Origin: Candidatus Aminicenantota bacterium
GTDB lineage: Bacteria; Acidobacteriota; Aminicenantia; JAMOAD01
DNA: 6,584 nucleotides
Assembly: GCA_027061995.1 (NCBI GenBank)
Contig: JAMOUT010000084.1
Location: 1-6,584, forward strand
Reading direction: 5' to 3'
In this document: positions 1,961 through 6,260 of the stretch, piece after piece
Position numbering within the stretch: the first letter of the stretch is position 1
Layout of the letters: the number at the start of each line of letters is the position of its first letter
Translations under genes and position numbers: made by a program
Notes under the pieces: generated by a model
Told to the model about the DNA's origin: nothing
The model's input: only the letters and a program-made list of their open reading frames with translations
The model's database searches: none

Positions 1961-2917
1961 ATGGGTAAAGCACTTAGCTATGAGAGATATGTTTGGTTTA
2001 TCAGCCAGATAAATGAAAACAGATACCCGAATGCATCTGATATTGCGAAATTCCATGAAATCAGCCATTCTCAAGCATTCAGAGATATAGAATTCATCAG
2101 AGACAGATTAAATGCTCCGATTCAATATGATCCCGTGAAAAAAGGATATTTTTTAACGGATGAAAGTTATATGCTTCCGTCCGTATGGATAGATTATAAA
2201 GAGCTGCTTTTATTAACGCTCTCAAAAGAGTTGTTAAAGGATAAAGATGCAAAAAAGATTCTTGAAACTCTTTATAATAGAATAGTTCCCTTTTCAAAAT
2301 TGGGATTGAAAGAGATTCATGATATTGTCTCATATAAAGGGATAAGATTTTATAAAATCAAAGAGGGAATCTTAACATCAATTTTTTTCGCAATATTAAA
2401 CAAAAGGATGATAGAGGTTAAATATGTTCATATACTTGATAGCAGCGAATGTTTAAGAGTAATATCTCCGTTTCATCTTATTTTTTACATGGGGAATTGG
2501 TATCTTCTCGCTTTTTCAGAGGATAAAATAAAAACATATGCTTTGTCAAGGATTAAGGAAGTGAATATTTTGAGAAAAGATATAAAAGAGAAGATTAATA
2601 ATAAAAAGATAAAAAAGATGATAAACGAAGTGTTCGGAATTTATCTGTCCGATACAGATAAACATATATTTGACATCAAGCTAAAATTTTCAAAAAACAT
2701 CTCTAATCTTATAAAGAGCGTGTATTTTCATGAAAAACAGAAGATGGAAAAACTTGAAAACGGAGAAGTGATTATCAGTTTCAAATCTTCATTAAATGAG
2801 GAATTGATAAGAGAGGTTTTAAGATTCATCGGTGATATTGATGTTATCTCCCCTCCCGAATTAAAACAAAAAATCATAGACAGGGTATCGAATTCGGTTT
2901 TTACCCGGAAAAATTAG
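1961..2917 (+). CDS. WYL-domain transcriptional regulator (YafY/PafBC-like)
   Basis: This 318-residue protein has the three-part layout of WYL regulators: an N-terminal winged helix-turn-helix (about 1-65, recognition helix around SHSQAFRDIEFIRDRL), a WYL domain (about 137-205) with NWYLLAF at 179-185 and ALSRIKEV at 194-201, and a C-terminal WCX-type domain (about 225-312). Such proteins bind DNA as dimers and sense a nucleic acid or other ligand through the WYL pocket. Relatives such as BrxR and CapW control phage-defence operons, so control of the cassette 205 bases upstream is a reasonable inference but not shown; a DNA-damage or housekeeping role is the alternative. The ATG at 1961 is the only plausible start: an in-frame TGA lies at 1946-1948 and the HTH begins right after. 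There is no visible ribosome site. Its TAG stop overlaps the TAA stop of the convergent hydrolase gene. Confidence 0.88.
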   Translation: MGKALSYERYVWFISQINENRYPNASDIAKFHEISHSQAFRDIEFIRDRLNAPIQYDPVKKGYFLTDESYMLPSVWIDYKELLLLTLSKELLKDKDAKKILETLYNRIVPFSKLGLKEIHDIVSYKGIRFYKIKEGILTSIFFAILNKRMIEVKYVHILDSSECLRVISPFHLIFYMGNWYLLAFSEDKIKTYALSRIKEVNILRKDIKEKINNKKIKKMINEVFGIYLSDTDKHIFDIKLKFSKNISNLIKSVYFHEKQKMEKLENGEVIISFKSSLNEELIREVLRFIGDIDVISPPELKQKIIDRVSNSVFTRKN

Positions 2918-3567
2918 ATTCTTATACTTTCTCCCGGCTGAATAATGATGATTTCAGCATAATTTCTTGCGTATTTCTTAAATTCTTCGGGATCTTTTTT
3001 AATAGGTTCCCAAGTATTATAATGCATCGGAATAGCTATTTTGGGTTTCACAAGCTCGACAGCCTTAGCTGCGGCACGAGGACTCATATTAAAAAGACCG
3101 TCTATGGGTAAAAGCATCATATTGGGTTTATAAAGTTCCCCGATAAGAGACATTGATCCGAATATACCGGTATCTCCCGTGTGATAAACCGATTTTCCGT
3201 CCATCGCTATTATAAATCCCGTAGGAACTCCTTTGTTTGAGGAGTGGATAGCTTGAACCATGGAAAAAGAAACCCCTTCAAGTGTAATAGTGCCACCTAT
3301 GTTCATGCCGACAGAATCAATCTCTTTTGATTGAAGTGCGAGAGAAAGCTCGAATATGGTTATGACTTTGGCCTTTGAGTTTTTTGCTATTTTTTCAACA
3401 TCACCATAATGATCCTGATGATCATGTGTTATGGCTATGTAATCAATATTTTCAATATCTTCCGGATCATATTTTGCAGCGGGATTATCCGTTAGAAAAG
3501 GGTCAATCAAGATTTTTTTCGAACCCTTCAATAAAAACGCTGAATGACCAAGCCATTTAATTTCCAT
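2914..3567 (-). CDS. UPF0173 family metal-dependent hydrolase (metallo-beta-lactamase fold)
   Basis: This 217-residue protein is a small cytoplasmic hydrolase of the YtkL/UPF0173 family, close to the usual length. Metal ligands are visible: THDHQDH with H48, H50, D52 and H53; H108 in AIHSS; D132 in HTGDT; and H182 in PMHYNT, enough for a two-metal centre. WLGHSAFLL at the start and GMNIGG (87-92) are family hallmarks. The substrate is not known for the family, so no reaction should be assigned. No signal peptide is seen. The start is secure: AAGGAGGT (3573-3580) lies five bases before the ATG. It likely has its own promoter at 3595-3623, behind a terminator-like hairpin. Its stop shares bases with the stop of the convergent WYL regulator gene. 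Confidence 0.9.
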   Translation of the reverse strand: MEIKWLGHSAFLLKGSKKILIDPFLTDNPAAKYDPEDIENIDYIAITHDHQDHYGDVEKIAKNSKAKVITIFELSLALQSKEIDSVGMNIGGTITLEGVSFSMVQAIHSSNKGVPTGFIIAMDGKSVYHTGDTGIFGSMSLIGELYKPNMMLLPIDGLFNMSPRAAAKAVELVKPKIAIPMHYNTWEPIKKDPEEFKKYARNYAEIIIIQPGESIRI

Positions 3568-3827: not shown

Positions 3828-4883
3828 CTATACTAATATCTCCCTGTCATCTCCGATTTTTTTTGTGATTTCAAGATAATCCAAAAGTTCGAGAATAGGG
3901 ATATTATGCTTTCTGCTTAAACCTGTTATCTCTTTAAAATCCTTTATTTTAAAACGGGGTTTATGAACCTTCATCTTTCTCAACTCTCTTATTATATATT
4001 GCAGATAAGCTTCATTCAGAAAAAAGCCCCCTTTCGTGGGCATGATTTTCTCTCTTGCTATCAATATATCAATATATTTTCTTAATAATGTTTTATCTAT
4101 TTTTAAAAACTCGGCAAGTCCTTCAATATCAAGAGGATTAAAACTCTCTTTCGAATACAGTTCTTCAAGTTTATTGATAAGTTTTTCCTCCTCTTCCGTC
4201 AACAGATCCCCTTTGTTTGTAAAAACTCTGTCAGAATATATCTCTATTTTTTCCTCTTTTAAAAGTTTCCGGATAATCAGTTTGAATAATCTTGAATTTC
4301 TGAGTTTAACTTTTTTCCTCAAATCTTTCAATTTAACACCGAATCTAATATTATTCTTGGTCTCTCTTGTGCTGATGAATTGAAAAACTTTGTTTGTAAA
4401 TGATTCCAAATAATTCTTCTTTATAAAGCCATAATTTATCATCTCAAGAATAAGGATATCACCTAAAGCTTCAAAATCAAATATGAATTTTTCAAGCTTT
4501 TTTTTATTGAAATTAAGAGATAATGATTCTCCCGCAATCCCGTTTTTACCGGAAATATCAATTAAAAATCTAATACGATTTTTCACATCATAATTTTCAA
4601 GATTATTTATCTTTTTTTCCATAATCTCTTTTAAATAATAGAGATTATTATCAATAATAAAAATAATTCTTCCCGAACATATCTTCCTTTTATCCTTATT
4701 ATAGATAAGCATACTTCCCGTTGAAGCTTTCCCTCTCTCTTGTGAAGGGGTAAAAAGAAAATGTTTATCATCAATCGGCTTTATTCTTCCCGGGATAAAT
4801 GATTTTTTTTGTTTTAAGAAAAACTTTTTTTTACTAAATGAACACTCTTTATCTATTGTAAAAACATACTCGGATATTATCAT
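3828..4883 (-). CDS. SelB C-terminal winged-helix-like protein lacking the GTPase domain
   Basis: This 351-residue protein resembles the C-terminal RNA-binding half of the selenocysteine elongation factor SelB. The clearest match is at the end: residues 315-350, with FKEITG, LSRKH-IP, LE-LD and ITKK-GDDREIL, follow the conserved last winged helix of SelB, the domain that grips the SECIS hairpin. Residues 228-300 look like the preceding winged helix; two weaker ones may lie at about 97-160 and 165-225. Residues 1-75 may be a worn remnant of the beta-barrel domain before them (ICSGRIIF at 68-75). The EF-Tu-like GTPase, with its P-loop, DTPGH and NKxD motifs, is absent, and full SelB is about 600 residues or more; pgi directly upstream leaves no room for it. 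It therefore cannot deliver selenocysteyl-tRNA alone. It may bind RNA or DNA, or be a decayed SelB. It starts 6 bases after the pgi stop, with only AAGG 11 bases upstream, so translation is probably coupled to pgi. Lysine-rich and basic. Confidence 0.72.
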   Translation of the reverse strand: MIISEYVFTIDKECSFSKKKFFLKQKKSFIPGRIKPIDDKHFLFTPSQERGKASTGSMLIYNKDKRKICSGRIIFIIDNNLYYLKEIMEKKINNLENYDVKNRIRFLIDISGKNGIAGESLSLNFNKKKLEKFIFDFEALGDILILEMINYGFIKKNYLESFTNKVFQFISTRETKNNIRFGVKLKDLRKKVKLRNSRLFKLIIRKLLKEEKIEIYSDRVFTNKGDLLTEEEEKLINKLEELYSKESFNPLDIEGLAEFLKIDKTLLRKYIDILIAREKIMPTKGGFFLNEAYLQYIIRELRKMKVHKPRFKIKDFKEITGLSRKHNIPILELLDYLEITKKIGDDREILV

Positions 4884-4889
4884 ATTTAA

Positions 4890-6260
4890 TTAAACCTTTT
4901 TCCTCTCTAATTTTTGAAGATTCTCTATTAATGAAAGATCATACCCCTCTCTTTTAAGAAAACCATAGGTTAATTTTTTCCCCAGTTCAACACCGGGTTG
5001 ATTATAAGTGTTGATTCCGAGAATCTCGCCAGCTATGGCTGTTTGCATCTCCATTAACAGGAAAAATTCCCCTATTGATTCGGGAGATATATCTTTAAAA
5101 AGATAAGTGAAACTCGGTTTTCCGTTTTTAGCGAGGGCGAATTCGGTTCCTTTTTTTTCGGAGTCAATAAGTTCGGAGATTTTATGCCCTCCGAGATAAG
5201 ATGTTGCGGAAAACTCTTTTAATATTTCAGGAATTTCAATATCTCTGTTTTTATTTTCAACTTCCATAAATCCTATAACTTTATCATCGGGCCCCTCGAT
5301 ATAGAGCTGAACCTGTGAATGCTGATCCACAACCCCGAGGGATTTTACCGGAGTCTGTCCCCAATTGATTATTTCCCCTTTAAGATTCTCTCTCTTTCCG
5401 AGGCTTTCCGCCCAAAGCTGCCTGAACCAATCCGCCGCAAGATATAATTTTGAAGAATAGGGGAATAAGACAAAGATATTTCTTCCCCTTTTGTAAAATT
5501 CAAGAAGGATTATCGCTGATAAGGCTGCGGGATTTTTAAATATATCTTTTTTTGAAACTCTATCAATAATCCCTTTTGCACCTTCCAGAATTTTTCTTGA
5601 AGATATTCCCAATAATTCGGCTGAAAGAAGACCGATAGGAGTTAATATGGAAAATCTTCCCCCCACATTTTGCGGAATATGAAAAATTTTATACCCCTCT
5701 TTTTTCCCTATTTTCAAAAGATCCCCTTTTTCAGGATCAGTTATTAAAATGATTCTTTTTGATAATTCGGCAGCTCCCGATTTTTCCATTTTATCCTTTA
5801 AAATCATAAATTGCGCCATTGTTTCCGCTGTTGAACCCGATTTTGTGATAATAACGGCAATTGATTTTTTTAAATCAATATTATCATAGAATTCCGCAAT
5901 AATCTCAGGATCAACATTTTCAAGGAAAAAGAATCGGGGTTTATTATTAATATTATGATAATAAGACAGGAGAGATTGATATATTGCCTGAACTCCGAGA
6001 GATGACCCACCTATACCTGTTATTATAATATTTTCATATTCGATGTTAAGGGTTTTAACAAAATCCTCAACCTCTTCAAGAGGGGATGTATCCGAAGGAA
6101 GATTAAGAAACGAAAGCTCCCCCTTCTTATGCATCTCCATTATATTATCTATAGAATTATTGATGCTTTCCTCATATTTGTTTATATCATCTATGGTCAG
6201 TCCTTTTTCTCCTATAATCTCTTTCAGAACAAAAGTATAATCAATACTGATTTTACTCAT
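4890..6260 (-). CDS. pgi: Glucose-6-phosphate isomerase
   Basis: This 456-residue enzyme interconverts glucose 6-phosphate and fructose 6-phosphate in glycolysis and gluconeogenesis, in the cytoplasm. The sugar-isomerase fold is clear: GIGGSSLG (82-89), SGSTAET (141-147, phosphate binding), GGRFS (200-204), WAESLGKR (283-290), DQHSQVQLY (312-320), GGH (357-359) and NQPGVELGKK (420-429). Catalytic residues by analogy with rabbit PGI are E285, H314 and K428; all are present. The length fits the short bacterial type of about 450 residues rather than the 550-residue type. The start is fixed by AGGAGG (6265-6270) four bases upstream. It is the first gene of an operon with the SelB-like gene 6 bases downstream. 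No defect is seen. Confidence 0.96.
   Translation of the reverse strand: MSKISIDYTFVLKEIIGEKGLTIDDINKYEESINNSIDNIMEMHKKGELSFLNLPSDTSPLEEVEDFVKTLNIEYENIIITGIGGSSLGVQAIYQSLLSYYHNINNKPRFFFLENVDPEIIAEFYDNIDLKKSIAVIITKSGSTAETMAQFMILKDKMEKSGAAELSKRIILITDPEKGDLLKIGKKEGYKIFHIPQNVGGRFSILTPIGLLSAELLGISSRKILEGAKGIIDRVSKKDIFKNPAALSAIILLEFYKRGRNIFVLFPYSSKLYLAADWFRQLWAESLGKRENLKGEIINWGQTPVKSLGVVDQHSQVQLYIEGPDDKVIGFMEVENKNRDIEIPEILKEFSATSYLGGHKISELIDSEKKGTEFALAKNGKPSFTYLFKDISPESIGEFFLLMEMQTAIAGEILGINTYNQPGVELGKKLTYGFLKREGYDLSLIENLQKLERKKV

Follow-up and report, generated by a model that had tools for sequence, protein, structure and literature searches.

A GTPase-Less SelB-Type Winged-Helix Protein Conserved as a Free Form in Aminicenantes and Commonly Encoded behind RNase R

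The Locus

The window, by which we mean the whole 6,584-nt stretch analyzed (contig JAMOUT010000084.1, assembly GCA_027061995.1), belongs to a Candidatus Aminicenantota genome of 2.36 Mb that is 95% complete. ORF calls place on its reverse strand a GTPase-less SelB-like gene with an ATG start, encoding a protein of 351 aa referred to here as SelB-C, which follows pgi as the second gene of a pair. A terminator scan found no terminator behind the SelB-C gene, and the window contains no Rfam match. The features of the pair are as follows:

4890..6260, reverse strand: pgi, the first of the two genes, encoding a glucose-6-phosphate isomerase of 456 aa (PF00342, E 1.7e-37)
4884..4889, reverse strand: 6 nt separating the stop of pgi from the start of SelB-C
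3828..4883, reverse strand: SelB-like gene without GTPase (ORF; SelB-wing_3, E 7.5e-12; 1LVA, E 6e-11; model pLDDT 86.7)
4650..4883, reverse strand: beta-barrel resembling SelB/EF-Tu domain III, residues 1-78 (model strands; 4ZU9 alignment)
4416..4592, reverse strand: winged helix 1, residues 98-156 (model; the 1LVA alignment begins at model residue 98)
4203..4415, reverse strand: winged helix 2, residues 157-227 (model and fold match; SelB-wing_2 in homologues)
4011..4202, reverse strand: winged helix 3, residues 228-291 (model; winged helices 3 and 4 match 1WSU at 1.8 Å over 123 residues)
3831..4010, reverse strand: winged helix 4 (WH4), residues 292-351; the domain that binds SECIS in SelB, and the best conserved one in the family
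3906..3917, reverse strand: SRKH, residues 323-326, where the recognition helix of WH4 begins (aligns to Moorella SelB S605-R606-K607-Y608)

The window also carries a type II restriction-modification pair on the forward strand, comprising a DNA methyltransferase (170-985; N6_N4_Mtase, E 5.9e-45) and an overlapping MvaI/BcnI-family restriction endonuclease (982-1755; E 1.8e-64). A forward-strand regulator with a WYL/WCX domain (1961-2917) is convergent with a small metallo-beta-lactamase-fold hydrolase on the reverse strand (2914-3567), their ends overlapping.

Domain Content and Fold

The original prediction, made from the letters and reading frames of the window, had proposed that this protein carries the signature of the last SelB winged helix and at least one more such domain while missing the EF-Tu-like GTPase, and all three points hold. 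The sole Pfam match is SelB-wing_3 (PF09107) on residues 309-347, at 45 bits against a cut-off of 23.2. The AlphaFold model comprises the barrel and four winged helices in total. Pfam reports no GTP_EFTU match, and the 351 residues leave no room for a GTPase domain as the barrel begins at residue 1; EF-Tu domain II is also absent from the model. The NCBIfam selB model (TIGR00475) matches only residues 151-348, with 30 bits, below its equivalog cut-off of 242.25.

Structure prediction and profile searches, proposed with the original prediction as a check, returned SelB as the best match and no better unrelated winged-helix family. In a phmmer search of PDB sequences, Moorella SelB (1LVA) matched residues 121-349, and the family profile matched the same protein with an E value of 2.5e-40. 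The top fold matches among solved structures were all SelB (1WSU, Z 16.8; 1LVA, Z 16.7), and Aquifex SelB (4ZU9) aligned to the model across residues 1-351. Residues 1-79 also matched domain III of eIF2-gamma (Z 8.7), and Pfam Beta-barrel_SelB was found in the homologue at locus L045, not in the window protein itself. Winged helices of UFL1, cullin and Roco proteins scored below SelB in the fold searches and were taken as generic instances of the fold. The window protein is thus an intact SelB relative with a domain-III-like barrel and four winged helices and without a GTPase domain.

Conservation and Independence from Selenocysteine

A survey of 100 genomes of the class (Aminicenantes and relatives) found PF09107 in 95 genomes representing all 39 genera, and the GTPase-less protein, hereafter the free form, in 94; the remaining genome (G016) has a full SelB only. 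An apparent absence of the gene in G020 was traced to a contig end. One relative, in a Candidatus Aminicenantes draft genome, shares 63% identity over 249 residues with the window protein, which identifies the class as Aminicenantes or its GTDB equivalent. Estimates of dN/dS between two close relatives were 0.07 (NG86) and 0.13 (YN00), and the free form is under strong purifying selection.

As suggested with the original prediction, the window genome was searched for the selenocysteine machinery. Neither full SelB nor SelA nor tRNA-Sec was found above cut-off in this 95% complete genome, the best tRNA-Sec matches being ordinary tRNAs (Ser, Leu, Trp and others). Across the class, selA exceeds the cut-off in 20 of the 100 genomes. 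The earlier idea that the protein competes with, or otherwise modulates, true SelB during selenocysteine decoding could draw on the free form being present in 19 of these 20 genomes, but 75 of the 80 selA-less genomes, that of the window included, carry it as well. Such a role is strongly disfavored as a general function and we consider it extremely unlikely. The RNA-gripping half of SelB is kept as a separate protein across the class, even where selenocysteine is not used.

Origin of the Free Form

Maximum-likelihood trees of the winged-helix region contain one branch that parts the free forms from nearly all SelBs of the phylum, the full-length SelBs of the class itself included; the exception is two full SelBs of family f42, which fall near the free forms. 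The free form of family f4 is longer (467-471 aa) and is missing the GTPase domain alone, its residues 1-210 folding as EF-Tu-type domains II and III (Z about 16, 2.7-3.3 Å) ahead of four winged helices. At the other extreme, the frames of some genomes encode just the four winged helices, without the barrel, in about 256-278 aa. The simplest history is stepwise N-terminal loss from a full SelB. The family f5 free form is very divergent, on a branch of about 1.8 changes per column. An Actinomarina protein (L040) proved to be an ordinary SelB of 559 aa.

The missing GTPase domain might by itself suggest a decaying selB fragment, but that explanation is refuted by conservation. The frame is intact, it is maintained under the low dN/dS given above in 94 of 100 genomes, and it stands apart from the local SelBs in the tree. 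No relative examined has a full SelB at the same position with this copy decayed. The gene is not a decayed selB, and the original description of an intact frame starting 6 nt behind pgi in a shared operon, not a fragment of a broken selB, is upheld.

Retention of RNA-Contact Residues

WH4 has the lowest mean column entropy of the family (1.40 bits, against 2.1-2.4 for the other domains). Within its SRKH motif, R324 is kept in 23/24 free forms and K325 in 22/24 in the alignment, and both in 46/46 SelBs. Among the free forms, the residue at the Moorella R606 position is kept in 23/24, that at K607 in 22/24, that at R624 in 23/24 and that at R629 in 24/24; the window protein has K342 at the place of R624. 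We take Moorella R606 and its neighbors to be SECIS RNA contacts, as in the 1WSU and 2UWM complexes. The 21 family members in the alignment are without exception basic, with pI values of 8.9-10.2. Thr 320 marks the free group, being present in 23/24 free forms at a position that is mostly aromatic or aliphatic in SelB. The contact residues of SelB are therefore conserved in the free forms, for which binding of hairpin RNA is predicted.

Linkage to rnr

Gene order in relatives identifies RNase R (PF00773, E 4.8e-118), not pgi, as the recurrent upstream gene. When the coordinates of SelB-wing_3, RNB and PGI matches were joined over the 100 class genomes, the free form lay directly behind rnr on the same strand in 55 of the 59 genomes outside families f1 and f5, seven of these having pgi in between (f2, f4, f6). 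The other four (G026, G436, G440, G447) have the two genes on different contigs, at least one of them at or near a contig end. Most junctions overlap or span less than about 40 nt (among those inspected, 12 overlap as ATGA and one as GTGA), so that the earlier idea of binding to its own mRNA would find no room for a leader there. A conserved RNA element at the junction was set aside: although the alifold energy was below that of column shuffles, the sequences are close relatives and the region is largely coding, and wider sampling gave overlaps or very short gaps.

The two remaining families differ. None of the 30 f5 carriers of the divergent free form has a full-size RNase R; a significant RNB match is absent in 21 of them, in the other nine the only RNB protein is of a different, shorter type, and the f5 gene has no close same-strand gene upstream. 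In f1, the family of the window, rnr lies elsewhere, next to pyrH (assigned by sequence), and SelB-C is paired with pgi. This family has lost the rnr link and its gene travels with pgi. The rnr operon also contains valS, birA and coaX and is therefore in part a general housekeeping cluster.

RNase R of the window family (L083:763-2955, L115-L117) ends in a K/R-rich tail of 24-35 residues. The tail is absent in most linked genomes and present in the unlinked f1; linked f4 members have short tails and the outgroups are mixed, several being tailless, so that loss of the tail does not discriminate as a mark of dependence on SelB-C. Six f4 genomes (G007, G011, G014, G017, G020, G026) have a second RNB-like gene with a weaker match and a frame of 618-654 aa. 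Among the linked loci, a protein of roughly 690 aa without Pfam match is encoded convergently to the SelB-C gene at L045:3395-5455 and at 13 more loci; the next gene is often one for a carbamoyltransferase with OTCace domains.

A Second Link between rnr and Full-Length selB

Among the SelB and RNB matches listed for the one phylum surveyed, a full-length selB lies directly behind rnr in at least three families, f32 (at least six genomes), f23 (at least three) and f63 (at least two), with gaps of -26 to +90 nt (loci L158-L163, L176, L177, L179-L181). In f84 rnr and a full-length selB are parted by a 2.5-kb insert, and no rnr was found within the stretch examined at the other ten SelB loci checked. 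The f32, f23 and f63 SelBs form one clade (100/100), sister to the f16 SelBs on the Moorella side of the tree. Grouping them with the free forms, as expected from a single ancestral rnr-selB link, is disfavored (p-AU 0.027-0.029, for groups named after the tree was seen). Because the rnr-linked full-length SelBs and the free forms are different clades, the link to rnr probably arose twice.

Linkage to pgi

The original prediction drew attention to an unexpected tie to a glycolytic gene. The pgi neighbor is real: it adjoins SelB-C also in G001, G003, G005, G009 and f4 genomes, and in G002 the two are fused in frame as an 889-aa protein (L044:5988-8657) with a charged, K/E/P-rich linker of roughly 100 residues. 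A place for pgi as the main partner is, however, not supported. The pairing was found in only some families, pgi intervening between rnr and SelB-C in three of them, and most class genomes have pgi elsewhere. The pgi link is the exception and rnr is the class-wide partner. That SelB-C specifically partners phosphoglucose isomerase, or serves it as a moonlighting control unit, would fit the pairs seen in f1, f2, f4 and f6 as well as the fusion; given the distribution of pgi across the class, and a fusion that comes from one draft genome of 85% completeness, we regard this as very unlikely.

Proposed Role

The best explanation, to which we give about an even chance, is that SelB-C is a GTPase-less SelB paralogue that binds RNA as a free protein, apart from selenocysteine decoding, and serves as a partner of RNase R. 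Domains I and II, the GTPase and tRNA-binding part of SelB, would have been shed, while domain III stayed together with the four hairpin-holding winged helices, of which WH4 may grip a hairpin, either within an RNA or on the ribosome. There SelB-C might bring, orient or restrain the 3'-5' exonuclease RNase R; made in step with this enzyme, it could most simply direct RNase R to targets or hand RNA over to it, a part played elsewhere by SmpB. The data establish the SelB homology and domain content of the protein, its conservation, the coupling of its gene to rnr, its independence from Sec genes and its retained RNA-contact residues. We infer RNA binding, contact with RNase R and the direction of its effect; the partnership is the most likely role in view of translational coupling to rnr in most of the class together with the separate SelB clade behind rnr. 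Gene neighborhood alone is no proof that SelB-C contacts RNase R, and the f5 carriers without full-size RNase R, the f1 genomes with rnr elsewhere and the housekeeping genes in the rnr operon count against the partnership. In other bacteria SmpB is encoded together with RNase R and binds it; the co-encoded pair is a precedent from the literature (PMC12320835). RNase R requires a single-stranded 3' overhang, and its substrates include structured RNA as well as ribosomes (PMC12320835, PMC10901742).

SelB-C might instead be an RNA-hairpin-binding regulator with targets of its own, rnr and pgi being merely co-expressed neighbors. The f5 genomes, which keep the protein without RNase R or a close same-strand gene upstream, and the window family, which keeps the gene away from rnr, demonstrate that it can exist without this neighbor and make a broader RNA-binding role a serious rival. 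We nevertheless hold it to be rather unlikely, since it accounts poorly for the 55/59 linkage with translational coupling and for a full selB having become linked to rnr in another clade as well.

Quite unlikely, in our judgment, is a ribosome-associated factor (for rescue, hibernation or 30S quality control) whose SelB-type winged helices dock close to the mRNA channel, RNase R then acting downstream. SelB itself is active on the ribosome (the fold match to 5LZB), and RNase R degrades 30S subunits and non-stop mRNA on ribosomes (PMC10901742, PMC12320835), but the best-conserved part of the family is WH4, which contacts SECIS in SelB, and not the barrel.

Returning to the RNase R partnership, the data suggest that the hairpin-binding part of SelB was put to a second use in RNA decay. 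A bolder version, which we advance tentatively and with less than even confidence, is that the SECIS-binding half of SelB became a dedicated RNase R targeting subunit in one class while another clade independently linked an intact SelB to RNase R. If true, this would reveal a previously unrecognized tie between RNA decay and the SelB way of recognizing hairpins. A literature search, with most subscription papers outside its reach, found neither a publication that links SelB to RNase R in this manner nor one on a free SelB C-terminal protein from Aminicenantes. To our knowledge, the only described task of the SelB winged helices is to grip SECIS in selenocysteine decoding. In this class, mostly without selA, they are maintained as stand-alone proteins, with a surviving intermediate that has lost the GTPase domain only, and the recurrent pairing with RNase R provides a concrete, testable idea of how the module may be used outside selenocysteine decoding.

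Comparison with Known Systems

The window protein has in common with SelB/EF-Sec (1LVA and 1WSU from Moorella, 4ZU9 from Aquifex, 5LZB from Escherichia coli) a domain-III-like barrel and winged helices 1-4. Unlike SelB, it has neither GTPase domain I nor domain II, falls below the cut-off of the selB model and belongs to its own clade, and unlike the usual setting of SelB, its genome is without selA, full selB and tRNA-Sec. The rnr-selB pairs of f32, f23 and f63 resemble the free-form loci in having a SelB-type protein encoded directly behind rnr, often with overlap, but their SelB is full length with a GTPase and forms a separate SelB clade. A further parallel is the RNase R-SmpB pair (rnr-smpB in Bacillus and Streptococcus), in which, as with SelB-C, a small translation-linked RNA-binding protein is co-encoded with RNase R. 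SmpB is, as far as we know, unrelated to SelB-C. For an accessory role of the SmpB kind, co-encoding with rnr is seen in those 55 of the 59 genomes that lie outside families f1 and f5, and not in the window genome, where rnr is elsewhere; SmpB binds RNase R, and SelB-C is predicted to do so.
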